Positions 2,700 through 47,999 of a stretch of DNA of 64,000 nucleotides are shown piece by piece. The stretch lies in NCBI GenBank assembly GCA_015068665.1, contig SVKB01000005.1, positions 1-64,000 of the forward strand. Direction: 5' to 3'. Below the pieces are notes generated by a model, which saw nothing but the letters and a program-made list of their open reading frames with translations, was not told the origin of the DNA and did not search any database. The position numbers were made by a program, and so were the translations under genes. The first letter of the stretch is position 1; each line of letters begins with the position of its first letter. The DNA comes from Oscillospiraceae bacterium. Its GTDB lineage: Bacteria > Bacillota > Clostridia > UMGS1840 > HGM11507.

Positions 2700-3503
2700 T
2701 CAATAGTAATAGTTATTATACTGATAATAGTTCTTGTATTTGTAGTTACCGTAACCAACCTTGGAGGTATATGAATAGGATGACATATCAACGTCATTAA
2801 GTATGAAGCCCAGCACCTTTGCATTTGCAAATTCCAGTGAGCTTATAGCTTTATATACCATATCCTGTGTTGTAAACTTATGTCTTACAACAAACAGTAT
2901 ACCGTCCGAAAGCTTTGCAAGTGCAGATGTATCCGCAACTACGTTAACAGGCGGAGTATCTAAGAATATATAGTCGTAGGTTTCAGATAAGGTATCAAGA
3001 AGCTTTTCCATTTTTTCATTGGATAAAAGCTCTATGGGATTAGGCGGAACATGACCTGCAGTAATAAAATGAATATTGTGCTCCTGACTTATTTTCAGGC
3101 AATCTTCAACTTTATCAAAGCCACCAAGAATATTGGAAAGACCTTTTTTGTTATCTGCACCCAAGTATCTGTGAAGCTTGGGTTTTCTTAAGTCACAGTC
3201 GATTATAAGAACCTTTGTATTTGCCATAGCAAAGGTAATTGCAACATTAATGGAGGTTAAGGATTTACCTTCACCCGGTATGGATGAGGTAAGGATAATT
3301 CTTTTACATCCCTTATCACTGTTCAAAGCAAAAAGAGTATTGGTTCTTGTAGTCTTATATGCTTCCTTAATATTGAATTTTGTATCATCGGTTATTACAT
3401 TGGCAATATCGTCCTCTAATTCCATAGGCTTTTTGCCTCTGCCGAATAAAGGTAAGCGTATTTTAGGAGTATGTTTAGAAGCTCTTTTATCAGTCTTATT
3501 CAT
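2700..3503 (-). CDS. cpsD: Bacterial tyrosine kinase (CpsD/YwqD-like)
   Basis: 267 aa. Cytoplasmic BY-kinase that autophosphorylates on a C-terminal tyrosine cluster and controls polysaccharide chain length or export with its membrane partner CpsC, encoded just upstream. Walker A SSIPGEGKS (73-81), Walker A' IDCDLRKP (101-108) and Walker B LDTPP (181-185) are all present. The last 25 residues contain 11 tyrosines, an obvious phosphorylation tail. Kinase and membrane activator are separate proteins, the Gram-positive arrangement. It starts 1 nt after the cpsC stop codon, suggesting translational coupling. Confidence 0.95.
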   Translation of the reverse strand: MNKTDKRASKHTPKIRLPLFGRGKKPMELEDDIANVITDDTKFNIKEAYKTTRTNTLFALNSDKGCKRIILTSSIPGEGKSLTSINVAITFAMANTKVLIIDCDLRKPKLHRYLGADNKKGLSNILGGFDKVEDCLKISQEHNIHFITAGHVPPNPIELLSNEKMEKLLDTLSETYDYIFLDTPPVNVVADTSALAKLSDGILFVVRHKFTTQDMVYKAISSLEFANAKVLGFILNDVDMSSYSYTSKVGYGNYKYKNYYQYNNYYY

Positions 3504-3504
3504 C

Positions 3505-4215
3505 TTATTTACCTCCTCTTGTCATAGCGGATTCAAGGTCAGGGATAACGCCAAGTATCGGAAGATCAAACTTGGATACAAGGTCGTCCTCATTTTTAAC
3601 ACGGGTATCAAGAAGCTCAATTATAAATATAATTACAGCACCCAGAACAGCACCCAAAAGGATACCAAGAATGGTATTTAAGGTTTTATTCGGGCTGGTA
3701 GGCGATGTTGGAGTGGTAGCCTCATCAACTACAATTACCGAACCGCCTGAACCGATTCGTTCAACCTCTGACTGAGCATTATCTAAGATTAGCTCGCAAA
3801 GCTGCCTTGCTTCTATTTTATCGGTACAAAGAACCTCAACCTGCAAAACCTCAGTTTCATTAAGGGATGAATAGGTTACCATACCTTTAAGCTGATTTGC
3901 CGAATAAGCGGTACCGCTGTCTGCAGCAATTTTATTGAAGAATGTATTGGTTTTGAAAATTTCTGTATAGGTGTTAAGAAGTCTGGCAGCGGCATTAAGA
4001 GTATTTATGCTTTCAGCCGGTATATTTCCATCCTCAGCGATTCTGGTGGCAGAATGCCTTACCAGAAGCTTACCCACCGATGTGTATTTTTCGGGAATAA
4101 AAACCTCTGTAACTGTAAAAAAGATACTTCCCATAAGAACGGTAGATACAACCAAAATCCACCATCTTTTTACAATCATGGAAAGAACCGATACTAAATT
4201 AATCTGATCATTCAT
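3505..4215 (-). CDS. cpsC: Wzz/CpsC-type chain-length determinant and kinase activator
   Basis: 236 aa. Integral membrane co-polymerase and activator of the adjacent BY-kinase. It has an N-terminal membrane segment after MNDQINLVSVLSMIVKRWW, an extracytoplasmic Wzz domain, a Pro-rich PTSPTSPN stretch before the second membrane helix (about residues 180-205), and a short cytoplasmic tail. ATG at 4215 is chosen because GGAGG lies 8 nt upstream; an upstream in-frame TTG would overlap the ribosome-binding site. First gene of the operon, with a promoter at 4265-4293. Confidence 0.92.
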   Translation of the reverse strand: MNDQINLVSVLSMIVKRWWILVVSTVLMGSIFFTVTEVFIPEKYTSVGKLLVRHSATRIAEDGNIPAESINTLNAAARLLNTYTEIFKTNTFFNKIAADSGTAYSANQLKGMVTYSSLNETEVLQVEVLCTDKIEARQLCELILDNAQSEVERIGSGGSVIVVDEATTPTSPTSPNKTLNTILGILLGAVLGAVIIFIIELLDTRVKNEDDLVSKFDLPILGVIPDLESAMTRGGK

Positions 4216-10570: not shown

Positions 10571-10608
10571 ATTTACCTCCACTTATCAAACCGTATACAG
10601 TCCGGCTC

Positions 10609-11061
10609 TTAAACATTTACAGTTTCTTTACCTATTTTTTTTGCGTAATTTACAGTATAGAAGCTACCGCCGAAGGAACGTGTGCAATGAGCCAGTATCA
10701 AATCACTTTTTTCGCAAAGCATACGGTTTCTTTTTAGCATACACCCCTCAACATATTCTTCCTCTGCGTATTCTATCGAATCTGCATTATAGAGAATTTC
10801 CTCAAAGGTCATTTTCTGATCACTGTTCCATTTGGAAAAATGATTTTTGCAGGGCAGAATAAGATGAAGCTTTATATCGTATTTTTTCTTGAATTCAATA
10901 ATGATAAAAGCACACAGCATATCAAAGCCGATAGCTCCGCCATTATAGAAATCCGTATAACCAAGCTCTATAAGCTCTTTAATTATTCTTTCGGTTTTTT
11001 CTTTTATATCACTGTAATTTTTTATGAATCTATGTCCCGTAAAAGCACACTTTTTACCCAT
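10609..11061 (-). CDS. SLOG-fold protein, YpsA/DUF1273 type
   Basis: 150 aa. Rossmann-like SLOG protein, a fold that often binds nucleotides or nucleotide derivatives. CAFTGHRF opens the first strand, GGAIGFDMLCA the second, RNRMLCEKSDLILAH and GGSFYTVNYAKK follow. Its biochemical activity is not known from sequence. It lies 7 nt after the nucleotidyltransferase gene and 38 nt before yicC, so it is probably co-transcribed. The two SLOG genes at 20335 and 46655 are a different, closer pair; this copy has no hairpin arrays around it. Confidence 0.8.
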   Translation of the reverse strand: MGKKCAFTGHRFIKNYSDIKEKTERIIKELIELGYTDFYNGGAIGFDMLCAFIIIEFKKKYDIKLHLILPCKNHFSKWNSDQKMTFEEILYNADSIEYAEEEYVEGCMLKRNRMLCEKSDLILAHCTRSFGGSFYTVNYAKKIGKETVNV

Positions 11062-18805: not shown

Positions 18806-19847
18806 CCTTATCATCTCCTTTTTCTGATTTCAAGCCCTCGTTAAGGGATTTTGTTATATATTCCAAGGATGAAATCGCTTTGCCGTAGTCCATTCTGGTG
18901 GGTCCGATAATACCAATGGCTCCGTAAACCGTATCGGTTATCTTATAAGTGGAAAGAACCATACTGAGTCCCTTTGTATCATCAGAATTACTTTCATCAC
19001 CTATAACCACGCTCATTATATCCCCCTTCATATTGGCGGATAAAATGCTTTTCATCTTTGTCTTGTCGTGAACAAGCTCTAAAAAGTCCTTGGCTTTTTT
19101 TACATCCTTAAATTCAGGAAGGGCAAGCATATTGGTCTCACCGCTTAAGTAAAGCTCGTTTTCGTTTATTTCACTGATCGTAGAATAAACAAACTCTAAG
19201 ATTTCAACCACCGCACTGTGATCACCCCGAAGCTTTAAGGTAAGCTCTTCAAAGCTGGTACGGAATATTTCCTCAATTGTTCTTCCCGAAATATATTCGT
19301 TAAGCTGCTCTTTTAAATCGGCTATAAAGTCAATATCAACCTCCATTTTAAGATTGATATGCTTGCTTTTTACCACATTTGAGTCGGTAACAAGAATAAG
19401 CATTATATTGAACCGATCCAGCAGAATAAACTCGATATTCTTTATTGTCCCCTGAGTATAATCAGGAGTTAATGCAACCGCAGTAAGATTGGTATGACCT
19501 GCGGCAATTTCCAGAACCCGTTTGATGTAAAAGTCAAGATCACGCATCTTCTGCTGCATTTGTGCCTTTAAGCTTCCTATTTCCTGCATCTGTACAAGAT
19601 AGGTTTCTATAAGACTGTCAACATAAGTTCTGTAGCCTAAATCCGACGGAACTCTTCCCGATGAGGTATGTGTTTTTACAAGGTATCCGAGATCCTCAAG
19701 GTCGGCAAGCTCATTTCGGATGGTTGCACTGGATAAGGATATATCCGTTTTCTTGGCAATATGCCTTGAACCGATAGGCTCGGCAGAGGAAATATAATCC
19801 TCAACAACAGCCTTTAATATTTTCTTTTGTCTGTCTGTTAAACTCAA
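18795..19847 (-). CDS. hrcA: Heat-inducible transcription repressor HrcA
   Basis: 350 aa. Repressor that binds CIRCE and needs GroEL for activity. The N-terminal winged helix (LTDRQKKILKAVVEDYI...GSRHIAKKTDISLSSATIRNELADLEDLGYL) and the TSSGRVPSDLGYRTYV linker are diagnostic. The start codon is TTG (19845-19847), preceded by AGGAGGT. A weak start codon on an autoregulated repressor gene may keep its level low. First gene of hrcA-grpE-dnaK-dnaJ-prmA. Confidence 0.97.
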
Positions 19848-19881
19848 TGAGCCACCTCCTTAAGCAGTTCATTGTTCATTG

Positions 19882-19908
19882 TTAGCACTCAAGTTAGCCG
19901 AGTGCTAA
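19882..19908. promoter_or_regulatory. CIRCE operator
   Basis: Perfect TTAGCACTC-N9-GAGTGCTAA, 34 nt upstream of the hrcA start and 8 nt downstream of the -10 box, so HrcA binding would block initiation of the whole operon. Confidence 0.98.
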
Positions 19909-19916
19909 CAATAGAT

Positions 19917-19945
19917 AAGATACCACTATTATATCAATTTGTCAA
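19917..19945 (-). promoter_or_regulatory. Sigma-A promoter of the heat-shock operon
   Basis: On the - strand: TTGACA (19940-19945), 17-nt spacer, TATCTT (19917-19922). CIRCE begins 8 nt downstream. Confidence 0.8.
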
Positions 19946-20059
19946 GACTATTATTCCAATTATTAACAAATTGTTTAAAAATGAAGATGGCAAGCATACC
20001 CGAAAGTAGTTAATAAATTTAGTTTCAGTATCATATTTATGTTTATTTAAAGGACTACG

Positions 20060-20330
20060 TTTCATTACACCTCATCCGTCCTTTTCTCGTTGCCGAAAGG
20101 CAACATATCGAGTTCCAAAGGAACATATCGAGTGCGAAGCACATATCGAGCAATTTTAATTGCATATCGAGTTTTGCTAAGCCAAACATATCGAAAATCC
20201 CGTAGGGATTTATATCCTGTTTTGTCAACCAAACAAAAAAGAGACGAAATTAATCGTCTCTCAGTTGAAAATTCTGCGTTTTTTATTCTGCATTCTTAAT
20301 TTATTATGCCGTCTCCTTATCTCTAATAAC
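20060..20330 (+). repeat. Hairpin array, ATATCGA-linker family (left copy)
   Basis: Six small palindromes, each opened by G and closed by C, are separated by the linker ATATCGA: GTTGCC-GAAA-GGCAAC, GTTCC-AAA-GGAAC, GTGC-GAA-GCAC, GCAATT-TT-AATTGC, GTTTTGCTAAGCCAAAC and AAATCCC-GTA-GGGATTT (20089-20211). It is preceded by CACCTCATCCGTCC and followed by a GAGACGA/TCGTCTC hairpin and ATTCTGCATTC-type sequence. From 20073 to about 20330 it matches, in inverted orientation, 21183-21442. No gene is supported; an open frame at 20090-20299 is an artefact of the repeats. Bases 19946-20059 are AT-rich with nothing recognised. Confidence 0.85.
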
Positions 20331-20334
20331 TTTT

Positions 20335-20814
20335 TTATTCAATAGGCTTCTCTGCCACATTGAAAATTTGCTTCTTTTTTCGCTTTGCATATTTGTAAGT
20401 ATTATAAGCACCACCCCAGGTGTGTTCAATATAGCATATAACATAGTCAGAATTATCAACCATATATTCATTACAACTTGTAATGTGAAATTTTCTTGGC
20501 TTATTCTCTGGAATATCAGCTATTAAAATATTATCAAATTTACCTTCATATAATTTTTTATATTCAATCAAGCCTTTTTTGAGATATGGTATTACAAGTT
20601 CCAGGGAAACATCCGGATATTTTTGTTTTAATTCCCTAATAACACATCCGGAACAGCCATCAAAACTTCCGTAGCTTCCAACCCAGAATTCATTAACTCC
20701 ATAATTTAAAATTAATTCTTCAGCTACAGCTTCTATCCGTTTTGTTACTTCTTCGGATTTACCAAATAAATCACTATGACCGGCAAAACAACATCTTACA
20801 ACTTTTATATTCAT
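20335..20814 (-). CDS. SLOG-fold protein (island 1)
   Basis: 159 aa. VVRCCFAGHSDLFG (first Rossmann strand), EFWVGSYGSFDGCSGCVIRELK, SLELVIPYL, CNEYMVDNSDYVICYIEHTWGGA and YKYAKRKKKQIFNV define a SLOG/DUF1273-like protein, clearly paralogous to the gene at 46655. Biochemical role unknown; SLOG proteins often bind nucleotide-derived ligands. ATG at 20814 is chosen because the predicted transcript starts about 20840, leaving no room for a leader before the alternative ATG at 20835. It is divergent from a small ribbon-helix-helix gene, and the pair lies between inverted hairpin arrays. Confidence 0.75.
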   Translation of the reverse strand: MNIKVVRCCFAGHSDLFGKSEEVTKRIEAVAEELILNYGVNEFWVGSYGSFDGCSGCVIRELKQKYPDVSLELVIPYLKKGLIEYKKLYEGKFDNILIADIPENKPRKFHITSCNEYMVDNSDYVICYIEHTWGGAYNTYKYAKRKKKQIFNVAEKPIE

Positions 20815-20846
20815 AATCAACACCCAGACAAGCATATATTATGAAT

Positions 20847-20875
20847 ATTATAACATAAAAGAAATTAATTTGCAA
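20847..20875 (-). promoter_or_regulatory. Promoter of the island-1 SLOG gene
   Basis: On the - strand: TTGCAA (20870-20875), 17-nt spacer, TATAAT (20847-20852). Confidence 0.6.
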
Positions 20876-20879
20876 TTAT

Positions 20880-20911
20880 TTTGTGTTCGTTATTAATTAC
20901 AATTTGTGTTC
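20880..20911. promoter_or_regulatory. Candidate operator: direct repeats TTTGTGTTC
   Basis: Two exact 9-nt copies (20880-20888 and 20903-20911) spaced 23 nt apart lie between the divergent SLOG and ribbon-helix-helix promoters. Tandem direct repeats about two helical turns apart suit ribbon-helix-helix dimers. Inference only. Confidence 0.35.
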
Positions 20912-20960
20912 TTATATTTCACCAAAAATAATATTATAATAGATGTAAGAGGTGATTATA

Positions 20961-21155
20961 TTGGAGAACAAGAAAAATAAATTTATTATTACACCTAAAA
21001 CTGAAAAATCGGTTACATTGACTATAAGAATTGAAACTGAACTCAATAATCATATAGAGGAAATAGCCCTAAAAAGTGGTCGTTCAAGAAATGAGCTTAT
21101 AAATAAGGCATTAAAATTCGCTTTTGATAATCTTGAGTTTGATTGTAATTCCTAA
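20961..21155 (+). CDS. Ribbon-helix-helix (CopG/Arc-type) DNA-binding protein
   Basis: 64 aa. After a basic N-terminus, VTLTIRIETELNNHIEEIALKSGRSRNELINKALKFAF (split here by position: beta strand near 20-25, helix-turn-helix pair near 27-58) fits an RHH repressor. Confidence 0.7.
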   Translation: MENKKNKFIITPKTEKSVTLTIRIETELNNHIEEIALKSGRSRNELINKALKFAFDNLEFDCNS

Positions 21156-21182
21156 ACGTATTTAGTATCCGTATTCAGGAAA

Positions 21183-21442
21183 ACTAAGAGACAAGGGGAC
21201 AGCGTAATAAATTAAGAATGCAGAATGAAAAATGCAAATTTTTTAGCCGTCGGTTAACTTTCCGACGGCTAACCGGGAGACGATTAATTTCGTCTCCTTT
21301 TTGTTTGGTTGACAACACCGGATATAAATTCCTACGGAATTTTCGATATGTTTTGGCTTAGCAAAACTCGATATGCAATTAAAATTGCTCGATATGTGCT
21401 TCGCACTCGATATGTTCCTTCGGAACGAGAAAAGGACGGATG
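21183..21442 (-). repeat. Hairpin array, ATATCGA-linker family (right copy, inverted)
   Basis: Read on the - strand this repeats 20073-20330 with high identity: hairpins GTTCC-GAA-GGAAC, GTGC-GAA-GCAC, GCAATTTTAATTGC, GTTTTGCTAAGCCAAAAC and AAATTCCGTAGGAATTT with ATATCGA linkers (array proper 21322-21428), then TTGTCAACCAAACAAAAA, the GAGACGA/TCGTCTC hairpin and the ATTCTGCATTCTTAATTTATTA tail (shortened here). It has one hairpin unit fewer than the left copy and an extra TA-bounded hairpin at 21244-21271. Confidence 0.85.
21244..21271. repeat. Mini-hairpin with MITE-like ends
   Basis: TA-GCCGTCGG-TTAACTTT-CCGACGGC-TA. It is present in the right array but absent at the matching place in the left copy, so it looks like an insertion at a TA or the relic of a deleted 273-bp MITE. 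Confidence 0.55.
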
Positions 21443-21580
21443 CCGAATGGCATATCCGTCCTATCCTTAATGTTGACATAAGTCAACAATTCATGATTTT
21501 TTAAAAATCAATTCATGTTATTGAATAGATAACAATTCATGCACCGCAAGGTGCAATTCACTATGCCGCTTGCGGCATAT
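21434..21580 (-). repeat. Head hairpin and AATTCAT-linker hairpin array
   Basis: A larger hairpin (GGACGGAT...ATCCGTCC around GCCGAATGGC, 21434-21461) joins the ATATCGA array to a second array with linker AATTCAT. Units on the + strand: GTTGACATAAGTCAAC, GATTTTTTAAAAATC, GTTATTGAATAGATAAC, GCACC-GCAA-GGTGC, then ATGCCGCTTGCGGCAT. The composite is nearly identical, in reverse orientation, to 46456-46657. Confidence 0.85.
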
Positions 21581-21588
21581 CATTTTGC

Positions 21589-21658
21589 ATTCTGCACTCT
21601 GAATTCTGCATTCTGCACTCTGAATTCTGCATTTTGCACTCTGAATTCTGCATTTTCC
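21589..21658 (+). repeat. 21-bp tandem repeat, three copies plus a partial
   Basis: Units begin at 21589, 21610 and 21631 (ATTCTGCACTCTGAATTCTG plus C; the third has ATTTTG). A partial fourth follows. The same vocabulary (ATTCTGCATTC) appears at the inner ends of the hairpin arrays. It abuts the 3' end of the tet-like gene. Confidence 0.8.
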
Positions 21659-21665
21659 ACATCGG

Positions 21666-24239
21666 TTATATATCGGAAAAGCTTTTATAGAAATCGGAAT
21701 TTTTTATATCTACGGAATTTTCCTCCAGCATTTTTCTTACGGTTTCCTCAACTATTTCCACATCCGAAAGAAGGGTTCTTGCGCTCATCCTCAGAGCGCC
21801 GCCTCCGAAGATTATCATTTGCTCCAAAGCATCCGAGGTGGCAACTGTTACCCGATAGTTTTTGCTTAGCTGAGCCGCAGTTTTTTCAATATAGGCATCG
21901 GCGGTCTGTGCTTCACGGGTGTAGACAATATTTATTCCGTTTATAATTTCTTTCTCTCCCGGATTCCCCTTTACCTTATAGGCATCGAAAACCACTATAA
22001 TTTCATATTTTTTAAATATGCGGTAGGTTTCAAGACGGTCGATAAGAGCTTTTCTTGCATTTTCAAGGCTATCCCTTGCTGTTTTACTTAAATCCTCCCA
22101 GGCGAAGATAATATTATATCCGTCAATCAAAAGATATTCCTTATCATAGGTTTTTATCTTCACCTTGGTTTCTTTTACGGTTACGGGCTCTTTTTTCGTG
22201 TGCATTGCATCGTAAACTCTTGTTTGCTTTACTTTACCGTAGGTATTTTCAAATATTTTCAAAAGCTCCTCGTCGGTAGCAAAGAATTTTGTTTTCTTTT
22301 CTCTTACCTCTTCCTTTGGCTTAGGCTTTAAAATGCTTTCAAGGTGCATATATTCGGGCACCTCATTCCATTTTACCGTAAAGCCTGCACCGTGAGAGCA
22401 GAAAACCGAATCGGGAGTATTTTCCGTATCGCTTTCGGGATTATAGCCGATTTCTTCTATTATTTTATCCTGATTTTTACACGGTCTGTATGCCGAAAAA
22501 CGGGTACTCATTTTCCCCTGTCCTCCGCTCAAGGCAATAAGGTCACTCTGATAGGCGGTAATAAGGCTTGCGGGAGCTTCACCTGAAATTCGCGTAAAAC
22601 TACCTTTAGTATAGGGCATTTCCACCTTTGCCTCCATACGGTCAAGGTCGGTCATAATTCTGCCTGTGTTTTCCCCGGGGGCATCAATAACAAACCTGTA
22701 GTAAGGCTCTAAAAGCACTGATTCGGCATTCATAAGTCCCTGCCTTACCGCACGGTAGGTTGCCTGACGGAAATCACCGCCCTCGGTATGCTTTAAATGG
22801 GCACGCCCTGCCTTTAAGGTTATTTTTATATCGGTTACGGGTGAACCTGTAAGCACACCCTTATGAGCTTTCTCCATAAGATGGTTAAGAATAAGTCTTT
22901 GCCAGTTTTTGGCTAAATTATCCTCGGAAACATCACATTCAAACTGCATACCGCTTCCCTCGGGAAGTGGTTCTAAAAGCAGATGCACCTCGGCATAATG
23001 ACGCAAGGGTTCATAATGTCCTACGCCTTCCACGGTATTTAAAATAGTTTCTTTATATATTACTCCTCCCCGTGAAAAGGTAACTAAAACGCCAAGCTTT
23101 TTATAAATAAGGTCGGTTAAAACCTCAAGCTGAATTTCACCCATAAGAGATATTCCGATCTCGCTTTTTGCCTCGTTCCAGGTTATATTAAGCTTTGTTT
23201 CCTCCTCCTGAAGCTTTTTAAGACCTGCAACAAATTTGGGAATATCAATCCCGGAGGGGTAATTGAGCTTATAGTTAAACACAGGCTGTGCGGTAAGCTT
23301 ATCCTCAAAGGAATCGGCACCGAGTCCCTGTCCCGAATAAGTACTTTTAGGCCCCAGCACGGCACAAACCTCACCGGGAAGCACCTCAGATGAAGTCTTA
23401 TACTTATCCGAGGAGTAAATTCTTATTTCGTTTATCTTTTCATCATTTATAATATCCTTTACCTTTAGGCTTCCGCCCGTTACCTTTAAAAAGGTAAGAC
23501 GGTTTCCCTTTTCATCCTCTTTTATTTTAAAGACTCTTGCACCAAAGGCAGGAAGAGGTGAAAAAGACACGGTGTATTTTAAAAAGCCCTTGAAAAAATC
23601 CTCCACTCCCTCCATTTTAAGAGCAGAGCCTGAAAAGCAGGGGAAAATTTTTCTTAGCTTTACGGCTTTTTGTATACTTTCTTCACTGACAGCACCCTTT
23701 TCTAAAAATTCGGTCATTAAGTCTTCATCGCAAAGAGCTGCATTTTCAAAAAACTCCTCACTGCTGTCGCAGGAAAAATCAAAAAAACCTCCGCCGAATT
23801 CCTCATTAAGCTCACTTATTGTATTCTCTAAAGAAAAGCCGGTAAGGTCGGATTTATTTATAAACACAAATACAGGGATATTCTTCTTATAAAGAAGCTC
23901 CCACAGGGTTCTGGTATGGCTCTGAATTCCCTCGGTACCGCTTATTACAAGCAGGGCATAATCGAAAACGCTTACTGTTCTTTCCGCTTCGGCAAAGAAA
24001 TCGGTATGCCCCGGAGTATCAAGAAGGGTGATGGAATATCCGTCTCCCGTAAGAATTGCCTGCTTTGAAAAAATGGTTATTCCCTTTTTTCGCTCCAGCT
24101 CGTCGGTATCTAAGAAGCTGTCCTTATTATCAACTCTGCCCATTTTTCTTATCTGCCCCGAGATGTAAGAAAGACCTTCGGAAAGAGTAGTTTTACCCGC
24201 GTCAACATGGGCAAGAATTCCCATTGTGATTCTTTTCAT
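21666..24239 (-). CDS. TetM-like ribosomal-protection GTPase fused to a YacP/Rae1-like NYN nuclease
   Basis: 857 aa. Residues 1-~665 are an EF-G-like GTPase of the ribosomal-protection group: G1 AHVDAGKTT (10-18), G2 RKKGITI (50-56), G3 DTPGHTDF (74-81), G4 NKSD (128-131), then domains II-V and the conserved ATDEELLKIFENTYG (654-668). Residues ~700-845 are an NYN (PIN-like) domain of the YacP/Rae1 type: LLIDGYNII, VVFDAYK, TREAQTADAYIE and ATSDALEQ hold the acidic metal-site residues. TetM alone is about 640 aa, so this is a true extension. It could clear tetracycline or a stalled complex and cut A-site mRNA; whether it confers resistance is unknown. No mobile-element context. Confidence 0.88.
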   Translation of the reverse strand: MKRITMGILAHVDAGKTTLSEGLSYISGQIRKMGRVDNKDSFLDTDELERKKGITIFSKQAILTGDGYSITLLDTPGHTDFFAEAERTVSVFDYALLVISGTEGIQSHTRTLWELLYKKNIPVFVFINKSDLTGFSLENTISELNEEFGGGFFDFSCDSSEEFFENAALCDEDLMTEFLEKGAVSEESIQKAVKLRKIFPCFSGSALKMEGVEDFFKGFLKYTVSFSPLPAFGARVFKIKEDEKGNRLTFLKVTGGSLKVKDIINDEKINEIRIYSSDKYKTSSEVLPGEVCAVLGPKSTYSGQGLGADSFEDKLTAQPVFNYKLNYPSGIDIPKFVAGLKKLQEEETKLNITWNEAKSEIGISLMGEIQLEVLTDLIYKKLGVLVTFSRGGVIYKETILNTVEGVGHYEPLRHYAEVHLLLEPLPEGSGMQFECDVSEDNLAKNWQRLILNHLMEKAHKGVLTGSPVTDIKITLKAGRAHLKHTEGGDFRQATYRAVRQGLMNAESVLLEPYYRFVIDAPGENTGRIMTDLDRMEAKVEMPYTKGSFTRISGEAPASLITAYQSDLIALSGGQGKMSTRFSAYRPCKNQDKIIEEIGYNPESDTENTPDSVFCSHGAGFTVKWNEVPEYMHLESILKPKPKEEVREKKTKFFATDEELLKIFENTYGKVKQTRVYDAMHTKKEPVTVKETKVKIKTYDKEYLLIDGYNIIFAWEDLSKTARDSLENARKALIDRLETYRIFKKYEIIVVFDAYKVKGNPGEKEIINGINIVYTREAQTADAYIEKTAAQLSKNYRVTVATSDALEQMIIFGGGALRMSARTLLSDVEIVEETVRKMLEENSVDIKNSDFYKSFSDI

Positions 24240-26358: not shown

Positions 26359-26360
26359 CA

Positions 26361-26530
26361 ATGAAATACGCCTTCGGCGTGTGAAATATTGCTTCGCAAT
26401 ATGAAATAGCTTTGCTATGAAATATGCCTTGCGGCATATGAAAAGGCGTATTTTATTTCATATTTTTCTGAAAGAAAAATATTTCATAATCCGTCAGGAT
26501 TATTTCATATCAACGAAGTTGATATTTCAT
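26361..26530. repeat. Hairpin array, TGAAA-linker family, with an orientation switch
   Basis: Units read TGAAA plus a palindrome starting TA and ending TA: TACGCCTTCGGCGTG, TATTGC-TTC-GCAATA, TAGCTTTGCTA and TATGCC-TTGC-GGCATA. At about 26440-26455 the orientation flips and three further units follow as TATTTCA linkers with ATTTTTCTGAAAGAAAAAT, AATCCGTCAGGATT and TCAACGAAGTTGA. It begins directly after the tRNA terminator. No gene supported; an antisense frame across the tRNA and array is an artefact. Confidence 0.85.
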
Positions 26531-27318: not shown

Positions 27319-28265
27319 TCACACTCTATATTCCATTTTCCCTTTTATCAGTATCTCATCCTCATTTACATAACAGCAAAAGCAGTATATCTCAACCCCT
27401 TTTCTATCCGCTTCCTTCAATGCTTCGGCAAATGCCTTATGAGTTTTTTCATTGGGGGTAAAGTACATTCCGTAGTCTGCCTGGATAATGAATACGATTT
27501 GTGAGGTATAGCCGTTTTCTTTAGCGTCAATAAGCTCGTTTATATGCTTTACCCCTCTTTCGGTGGGGGCATCGGGAAACATAAAGATATCATTTTCCTC
27601 CAGAGTTACCCCTTTGGTTTCAATAAATACCTTTTCCTCTCCCCTTTCGATATAAAAATCAAAGCGGGAGCTTTTATATTTAGCCTCGGGCTTTATTTTT
27701 GTTATTCCCGGTTGCTTTTTAAGATACTCAAAAAACACCTTGTTGGGTGCGGAGGAATCTATATTTATAAGCTTAGCCGTCGGAAAGTTATCCGAACTCG
27801 TTTTTAAATTGTAAATTTTTGATATAATATCGTTAAAATCCTCGGTAATATCCGAATATTACCTGCGTTTTTGCCTCATTCTATCTAAAAATTTCCTAAT
27901 TTGAAAATTCTTATAGAACCTATAACCCTTTAAAATTGTGATTTTTCAAGGCGGAAGGTTTTGATAATACAAGGTATATCGAAACCGACAACGAAGAAAA
28001 AGCCTATTTTTAAGGGTTTGAGGCGAGTTCGGATAGCTCTCCGACGGCTATCCCCTTTATAAACCGTCAAAACATCGTATTTGGTTTTCCTTTTTTCATT
28101 ACTGCTTTTTTCTAAAATTACCGTTACCCCGGGGATAAGAAGCTCCTTACATCTGCCGGTGTTTTTAACATGACAGACCTCCTTAATCCCGTCAATTTCA
28201 ACTATGGCGATAAAACGGTTAGGACGGGAAATAAATTTTCCCTTTACTGTATTTTCATATTTCAT
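27319..28265 (-). pseudogene. sfsA: sfsA interrupted by a MITE
   Basis: SfsA-family protein (DNA/RNA-binding or nuclease-like, originally sugar fermentation stimulation), normally ~225-235 aa. The N-terminal part (28265 to about 28049) encodes MKYENTVKGKFISRPNRF... to VYKG; the C-terminal part (27773 to 27319) encodes KLINIDSSAPNKV through RFDFYIERGEE, ETKGVTL and FPDAPTERGVKH to the stop. Removing the 273-bp element plus one TA joins them as YKGDKLINIDSSAPNKV in frame, exactly the family sequence at this point. The insertion introduces a frame change and stops, so the gene is inactive unless the element excises. Start codon overlaps the recG stop by 4 nt. Confidence 0.9.
27776..28048. mobile_element. 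273-bp MITE inserted in sfsA, TA target duplication
   Basis: Non-coding element bounded by TA dinucleotides (27774-27775 and 28049-28050). Inverted ends: GCCGTCGGAAAGTTATCCGA on the left against GCCGTCGGAGAGCTATCCGA on the complement of the right, continuing ACTCG on both (about 25 bp, 3 mismatches). No transposase. TA target and non-coding body suggest mobilisation by an IS630/Tc1-mariner-type enzyme elsewhere. Same length as the element at 47646, with diverged interior. Confidence 0.88.
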
Positions 28266-46458: not shown

Positions 46459-46657
46459 ATTGCACCTTACGGTGCATGAATTGTTATCTATTCGATAACA
46501 TGAATTGATTTTTAAAAAATCATGAATTGTTGACTTATGTCAACATTAAGGATAGGACGGATATGCCATTAGGCATCCGTCCTTTTCTCGTTCCGCAGGA
46601 ACATATCGAGTGCGAAGCACATATCGAGCAATTTTTATTGCATATCGAGTTTTGCTA
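46455..46657 (+). repeat. Composite hairpin array (AATTCAT family, head hairpin, ATATCGA family)
   Basis: From 46455 the linker ATGAATT (complement of AATTCAT) alternates with GCACC-TTAC-GGTGC, GTTATCTATTCGATAAC, GATTTTTAAAAAATC and GTTGACTTATGTCAAC. Head hairpin GGACGG...CCGTCC is at 46555-46582. Then ATATCGA units GTTCC-GCA-GGAAC, GTGC-GAA-GCAC, GCAATTTTTATTGC and half of GTTTTGCTAAG follow. It matches the complement of ~21360-21561 with five substitutions. It begins in the clpC stop codon and ends in the stop codon of the SLOG gene. Confidence 0.88.
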
Positions 46658-47122
46658 AGAAAAAAACTCCGCAATATTAATAATTTGTTTTTTCCTCTGT
46701 TTTGCATAATTTAAAGTGGCATTGGCTCCTCCCCAGGAACGGATGATATAACATATAATATAATCCGAATTATTTACCATATATTCATTACATTTAATTA
46801 TATGATACCGTTTAGGAGTTTTTTCCGGAATATCAGCAAGCAGAATGCTATCGTATTTTGCTCCCGGAACATATTTATTCTCAATGATTTCTTTTGTAAG
46901 ATACGGTAATACAAGCTCCAGCTCAATATCCGGATATTTTGCCTTCAGTTCGCTTATAACGAAAGCCGAGCCTTTATCAAAGCCACCATAATTACCCACG
47001 AAGAATTTTCTGACGTTATGGTTTACAATTAAATTTTCCGCCGAATCCCTGAGTTTAATTCTTATTTCATCCGTCATTATTGTATCACGATGACCGACAA
47101 AACAACATCTTGCATTTTCCAT
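46655..47122 (-). CDS. SLOG-fold protein (island 2)
   Basis: 155 aa, paralogue of the protein at 20335: RCCFVGHRDT, KFFVGNYGGFDKGSAFVISELK, ELELVLPYL, DSILLADIPEKTPKRYHII, CNEYMVNNSDYIICYI and NYAKQRKKQIINIA align along the whole length. Its TAG stop lies inside the GTTTTGCTAAG hairpin, so the array has supplied or altered the C-terminal residues EFFS. Transcribed from a promoter buried in a perfect 20-bp palindrome. Activity unknown. Confidence 0.75.
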   Translation of the reverse strand: MENARCCFVGHRDTIMTDEIRIKLRDSAENLIVNHNVRKFFVGNYGGFDKGSAFVISELKAKYPDIELELVLPYLTKEIIENKYVPGAKYDSILLADIPEKTPKRYHIIKCNEYMVNNSDYIICYIIRSWGGANATLNYAKQRKKQIINIAEFFS

Positions 47123-47588: not shown

Positions 47589-47645
47589 TATTAAACACCT
47601 CAAACTATATTTTCTACAAAAACTTAAAGAATATTTCTATACTTA

Positions 47646-47918
47646 GCCGTCGGAGATTCGAACTCCATACGCCTTAAACTTGTTAAATTTTAATCTTTTT
47701 AATTTGTCGTCCTCGAAAGGCGAAAGCATTCCTTCGTCCTCCGCATCAAAAATCTTATAAATTTTCCTGCGTTTAAGGTCGAAGAGTTTTAAAATAGAAA
47801 ATTTTCGTATAGTACAAAGAAAATACAAGAATAATACTTTCGTATATTTGCGGTATTTTCTGCAGTAATATCGGAAATTTGCATTTTCAAACCGTGTGTA
47901 GTTCGGATCTCCGACGGC
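47646..47918. mobile_element. Second 273-bp MITE, TA-flanked
   Basis: Bounded by TA at 47644-47645 and 47919-47920. Inverted ends: GCCGTCGGAGATTCGAACTC against GCCGTCGGAGATCCGAACTA on the complement. The body is exactly the same length as the element in sfsA. The complement of its left half resembles that element's right half (AGATTTTTGATGCGGAGGA against GTGATTTTTCAAGGCGGAAG). A 61-codon open frame inside it is not credible. Confidence 0.8.
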
Positions 47919-47999
47919 TATAGTTTAACAATGTTTAAAGCTATACTGAATAAGCTCAAAGTATTTTAAAATACTACAAGTTAATAATTTAAATTACTT

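Follow-up and report, generated by a model that had tools for sequence, protein, structure and literature searches.

Two inverted hairpin arrays around a SLOG gene and a ribbon-helix-helix gene are probably separate copies of a dispersed, S23-linked array arm

S23 (23S_rRNA_IVP) proteins are widespread and little understood. They are encoded in rRNA intervening sequences that have been called selfish, and their function is unknown (PMC4990558; PMC11270868). The 23S rRNA intervening sequences (PF05635, Coxiella IVS) are close to the DNA described here in several respects: S23 is the sole gene, the bounds are complementary and form hairpins, and these elements, again labelled selfish, spread horizontally (PMC4990558). 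A second parallel is offered by REP/REPIN sequences and their RAYT transposases, with short dispersed intergenic palindromes that prefer gene ends. BOX elements and other modular intergenic repeats consist of stem-loop blocks that occur in variable combination between genes.

Here, we analyzed a locus in the genome of an Oscillospiraceae bacterium, within a window of 64,000 nucleotides (the whole stretch of DNA that was studied), in which a SLOG gene and a divergent ribbon-helix-helix (RHH) gene lie between two inverted arrays of hairpins. We put a probability of about 0.68 on the reading that these arrays are two separately placed copies of one arm of a dispersed S23-type array, with an S23-based mobile-element mechanism as its conjectural part. 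The features that the argument needs, in window coordinates, are the following:

20086-20214, plus strand: left hairpin array core, a one-arm copy of the dispersed family
20239-20262, minus strand: intrinsic-terminator-like hairpin (GAGACGATTAATTTCGTCTC and a T tract), 3' of the SLOG gene
20264-20330, plus strand: tail (ATTCTGCATTC and TTAATTTATTATGCCGTC), also present in a solo copy on C21
20335-20835, minus strand: SLOG (YpsA-like, PF06908) gene of 166 aa, assigned by profile match
20952-21155, plus strand: gene for a ribbon-helix-helix (CopG-like) DNA-binding protein, divergent from the SLOG gene
21244-21271, no strand: extra TA-bounded palindrome, a short form of a separate TAGCCGTCGGA inverted-repeat family
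21275-21298, plus strand: intrinsic-terminator-like hairpin 3' of the RHH gene, homologous to 20239-20262
21323-21429, minus strand: right hairpin array core, a one-arm copy with five hairpins and four linkers
21430-21660, minus strand: 5' extension that the right copy has and the left arm lacks
46460-46659, plus strand: another family copy, the third in the window; it ends at the second SLOG gene
46667-47119, minus strand: second SLOG gene, paralogous to that at 20335-20835

The anatomy given in a preliminary description of the locus was confirmed throughout. The arms at 20073-20330 and 21183-21442 are inverted copies that match at 82-99%, in four paired segments: 20112-20186 with 21352-21426 (75 nt, 99%), 20184-20266 with 21271-21353 (83 nt, 92%), 20268-20324 with 21187-21243 (57 nt, 86%) and 20073-20091 with 21424-21442 (19 nt, 100%). 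Their hairpins follow the same order, and they differ, as described, by one hairpin unit, which is a GCC-GAAA-GGC hairpin additional to the left arm, and by the TA-bounded palindrome of the right arm; only the minus-strand SLOG gene and the plus-strand RHH gene lie between them. In the window we counted 11 occurrences of the linker CATATCGAG, where 0.2 would be expected. In the left core, CTCG is followed by six hairpins with five CATATCGA(G) linkers and then by GGATTTATA, and each arm ends on its inner side in the terminator-like GAGACGATTAATTTCGTCTC hairpin, downstream of the adjoining gene. On the left, this hairpin is part of the element's 3' tail, which is common to copies on C21, C36 and C1. 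The right extension holds a GGACGGATATGCC..GGCATCCGTCC hairpin, ATGAATTG-linked hairpins and ATTCTGC tandem repeats. Elsewhere in the window, a separate family of ~270 bp with inverted ends TAGCCGTCGGA/TCCGACGGCTA is present at 27774-28050 and 47644-47920, with 21244-21271 as its mini form and 27 end matches in the genome parts examined (one mismatch allowed); a Gut-1 RNA (RF01706) adjoins a tRNA gene at 26359-26428.

The same description had read the two arms as the terminal inverted repeats of a single 1.37-kb cassette, and here the genome-wide distribution speaks otherwise. The left arm alone has 48 blastn matches in its own 2.2-Mb genome. By reading around blastn and further pattern matches we arrived at 56 one-arm copies, and at 20 further arms that belong to two-arm arrays; these are lower bounds as they cover the examined genome parts and not the whole genome; most copies of the family are solo. 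In a repeat-depth profile of 19801-21800 only the genes are unique: the array cores are present at about 50-60 copies, most of the right extension (to about 21610) at 20-38, and the inner tails at about 3-7. Both arms find their best match in one copy on C21, a full-length solo element (C21:36062-36462) with the same tail as the window arms. The left arm scores 281 bits against C21:36062-36291 and 251 bits against the right arm; the right arm scores 483 bits against the C21 copy, and the left arm is not among its ten best matches. Since this solo copy carries the same tail, the tails belong to the element and not to a SLOG-RHH unit. Nor is 1.37 kb a natural unit, because homology on the right runs on past 21442 to about 21640 and still belongs to this family, whereas a different module stands before the left arm.

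Orientation was informative as well. In 39 of 55 cases (p=0.003) the gene on the 3' side of an array points towards it; as the RHH gene fell under the ORF cut-off used, counting it gives 40 instead of 39. Arrays sit between convergent genes 22 times versus 5 times between divergent ones. With their orientation thus fixed at gene 3' ends, two divergent genes will receive inverted arrays. Among the 12 array pairs closer than 2 kb, 8 share one orientation, 2 face outward and 2 inward. Considering that the family is dispersed, that each arm has a better partner on C21, that inward pairs are not enriched and that the arms share no outer boundary, they are not the terminal inverted repeats of one cassette; they are two separately placed dispersed copies, downstream of two divergent genes.

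A reading in which SLOG, RHH and both arrays form one non-autonomous cassette, mobilized in trans through its inverted arrays, is therefore very unlikely. It can draw on the absence of the entire block from a sister species (see below), on the presence of an array beside three of the genome's four SLOG copies, and on an S23 gene on contig C3 (C3:11694-11993) that is enclosed by inward arrays in the same topology. Against it stand, besides the solo best matches and the two inward pairs among 12, the unlike outer flanks, with a 200-bp extension on the right that is missing on the left; the other array-linked SLOG genes, which are not enclosed by inverted arrays; and the lack of a second SLOG-RHH unit in the genome. 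By eye, no target-site duplication was seen, the flanks at 20040-20073 and 21442-21660 being unlike repeat modules.

For comparison we used one other genome of the genus, a sister species whose hrcA protein is 85-86% identical and adjoins the same EF-G/NYN gene. Sister homology stops at window position 19970 and returns at 21732, with 96 bp in the sister in place of 1.76 kb. The presence/absence check that had been proposed thus found the entire block missing in this one sister genome, but the missing 1.76 kb exceeds the array-bounded unit. The locus's SLOG and RHH genes and its arrays are absent from the sister stretch; both species share a distant SLOG, at the place that corresponds to window 10606. 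In the window, this SLOG-like reading frame (10606-11058) has an in-frame TAA, and the sister's counterpart at the matching place is open. The EF-G/NYN gene was not found beside hrcA in the examined stretches of outgroups G002 and G003, and hrcA as a query gave no match for contigs of named relatives. With no array at the sister site, the arrays must have arrived at the same time as the genes or later, unless genes and arrays disappeared together. This also bears on the idea that two arrays were there first and that homologous recombination then brought SLOG-RHH in between them. The arms are 92-99% identical over 158 bp, enough for recombination, and arrays do cluster in regions such as C47 and C3; with a sister site that lacks any array and no known donor locus, we regard capture as improbable.

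The two genes themselves are probably bystanders of array spread. The SLOG gene matches PF06908 at E 9e-5, slightly under the curated cut-off, and is 55% identical to its paralogue at 46667-47119; the RHH gene matches PF01402 at E 1e-3. The RHH protein is probably an autoregulator, which would probably also repress the divergent SLOG promoter. PADLOC returned no match for either gene, and a defence system was rejected on that ground. A conserved SLOG-RHH pair was rejected too, as the plasmid relatives of SLOG that were examined (28-37% identity) have HTH neighbours or none, and not RHH. Because a DNA-binding gene adjoins or diverges from SLOG in two of these plasmid relatives, from Vescimonas and Monoglobus, the recurrence suggests a more general regulator-SLOG pair.

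The arrays have a clearer association outside this genome. Searching other genomes for a 28-base pattern, CATATCGAG-N10-CATATCGAG, gave 112 stretches, mostly from MAGs of herbivore-gut Clostridia. Many of these stretches hold two-armed arrays around a centre, and several arrays have a ribosome-binding site and an S23 gene start at their end. Using tblastn, we found 14 S23 genes in the 112 array loci (808 kb), 13 of them with linkers within 400 bp; the start codon usually lies tens of bases past the array end. The window arrays share with the outward-reading left arm of such an S23-upstream array the same CTCGTTGCC..GGCAAC start, the linker, and the AAATC..GATTTATA end. In other words, they are one arm, read from the CTCG centre outward, of a two-armed array that, in many Clostridia, immediately precedes the S23 (PF05635) genes of one clade. 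Because these same arrays belong to an S23-linked element that is horizontally spread in Clostridia, the earlier suggestion of non-autonomous mobile DNA fits the arrays, which look like pieces of that element; it does not fit SLOG-RHH as a unit. The genome under study has same-linker S23 genes of its own, at C3:11694-11993 and C15:12625-12912, the latter with an upstream ATG that is out of frame, and the S23 protein of the sister genome matches PDB chain 2rld at 2e-21. At C3:16246-16542 (L278), a further S23 gene has inverted tandem repeats of the ATTCTGCATTCTG type on its flanks, and this repeat is also that of window 21582-21660.

Six of the array-linked S23 genes follow immediately on the 3' side of a rumA/rlmD-like rRNA methyltransferase gene (L135, L160, L168, L239, L277 and L122), and the array's first hairpin makes use of that gene's end. 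Measured in four of these loci, all from other genomes, the first linker lies 4-8 bases past the aligned gene end. This recurrence and spacing suggest a preferred site at the end of rumA/rlmD-like genes.

To what extent arrays and S23 proteins belong together was assessed in 18 S23 loci of the same order, for the most part selected through their protein rather than through an array. A recurrent 7-mer linker lies upstream in most of them. The linkers of these same-order arrays are ATATCGA, GCTAAAT, ATCAC/AGTGATA, ATGATAT, AATGATG, CTTCAC and GTGAAAT, where three ATCAC-type loci were assigned by reading the sequence, their automatic counts not rising above shuffles; one further gene is flanked by TCTGCAT-type repeats. 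Other S23 clades, then, carry arrays built on other linkers. Nine linker labels placed on the S23 tree need 8 changes, the smallest number possible, compared to a mean of 14.3 for shuffled labels (0 of 200 as low). Host genomes are mixed on this tree, and different families of the order have S23-linker pairs that closely resemble each other. As judged from these sequences, linker type follows the S23 clade, not the host. Within the genome under study, over 302 kb chosen for containing CATATCGA, linker clusters number 62 for ATATCGA, 8 for GCTAAAT and 7 for TCTGCAT, all with an S23 gene present, and 0-1 for six linkers whose S23 clades were not found in this genome; AGTGATA has no cluster there, though an AGTGATA-type S23 is present. 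In a class-wide sample, an upstream array rose above shuffles in 5 of 25 S23 genes (GCTAAAT twice, AGTGATG, GTGAAGT and TGAATAA), so the highest-scoring, canonical S23 genes are without arrays. The other 20 showed no clear upstream array, and the array link is therefore limited to some S23 clades.

It is quite unlikely that the arrays are REP/REPIN-like repeats moved by a single RAYT-type Y1 transposase instead of by an S23-linked process, although the genome does have such a gene. The single Y1_Tnp gene at C16:42916-43251 scores 56.8 bits against PF01797 and 75.5 bits against the NCBIfam REP-associated transposase, just under the cut-off of 80; pieces of the RAYT gene are joined to two arrays at one and the same junction (L048 1227-1325 and L053 5799-6198), and the array tail, at 20264-20330 in the window, includes a piece of the sequence beside the RAYT gene on C16. 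However, no repeat of the array family flanks the RAYT gene, which has a AGAACCGTCCCCTTGTCTC repeat of its own in place of CATATCGAG hairpins (L254, C16:39500-46500, about 3030-3790); a search of the 808 kb surrounding arrays in other genomes gave no RAYT homologue; and array type tracks the S23 clade across genomes.

As a family, the arrays are dispersed intergenic hairpin repeats, with many intergenic copies, conserved pairing and variable stems. Copies sit between protein genes and not inside an rRNA gene, and none were found in viral contigs, plasmids or phages. An Rfam search gave no match, on which account a known RNA family was rejected as their identity. Since a compensatory-change test on 16 copies met too homogeneous a set, pairing was assessed on distinct segments: among 270 distinct inter-linker segments from other genomes, 80% form hairpins (stem >=4) versus 6% when shuffled, with 83 different stems in which pairing is kept. 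Loops of the G(N)NA type number 89 on the linker strand, with 0 of the complementary type; they are mostly C-G closed, with GNYA (32) more frequent than GNRA (21). In two-arm arrays, about half of the hairpins on each strand have the complementary-loop form. The window arrays fold well below shuffles as DNA (z -3.1 to -5.0), and more weakly as RNA (z -1.9 to -3.6). Exceptionally stable mini-hairpins of DNA have loops of just this GNA or GNNA type on G-C stems (PMC4686876), and this match favours, without proving, folded single-stranded DNA over RNA as the acting form.

These features also bear on a regulatory, non-mobile role, in which arrays would be hairpin leaders of S23 mRNA and solo copies would be terminators or mRNA stabilizers kept by selection. 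The strong preference for gene 3' ends, the terminator-like hairpins in array tails and the position of arrays between promoter-like TATAAT motifs and the S23 start in several loci all agree with it. It accounts poorly for the many non-GNRA loops, for linker types distributed independently of host, and for copy number, with 117 pattern matches versus 3 in two species of one genus, and we consider it unlikely.

Under our preferred reading of separately placed S23-type arms, S23 and its two-armed array would constitute a small mobile element. The S23 protein, for which we know of no catalytic domain, would recognize the clade-specific linker/hairpin array as folded single-stranded DNA, and arms might be copied through single-stranded intermediates, with host replication or repair enzymes, to new intergenic sites. 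Solo arrays such as the window arms would be the non-autonomous copies left behind by this arm copying, and once placed, they may serve SLOG and RHH as local terminators or spacers. More broadly, and tentatively, as we rate it below even odds, there may be minimal Clostridia elements made of an S23 four-helix-bundle protein and a cognate array of single-stranded DNA mini-hairpins with a clade-specific linker, a co-inherited pair that sheds solo arms. The strict match between S23 clade and linker offers a substrate on which S23 proteins can be tested, and may explain where one class of intergenic repeats in gut Clostridia comes from. A further lesson is that inverted arrays around genes in such genomes need not be transposon ends.

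A literature search whose coverage did not extend to preprints and many subscription papers returned nothing on S23 together with hairpin arrays outside rRNA. Compared to REP/REPIN sequences, the present arrays have five to six unlike hairpins on one fixed linker, and S23 in place of RAYT as the associated gene; compared to BOX elements, they differ in sequence and taxon, and have a fixed linker and a linked protein gene. MITEs are likewise short, numerous and without a transposase, but the one-arm core here has no terminal inverted repeats around it and no demonstrated target duplication. Avd of diversity-generating retroelements is a related four-helix-bundle family that PF05635 resembles (PMC10053308), whereas at the present loci no reverse transcriptase or template/variable repeat was noted. 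The 23S rRNA intervening sequences remain the nearest in gene content, from which the arrays described here are set apart by lying outside rRNA genes, by their multiple hairpins on clade-specific linkers and by their many dispersed solo arms.
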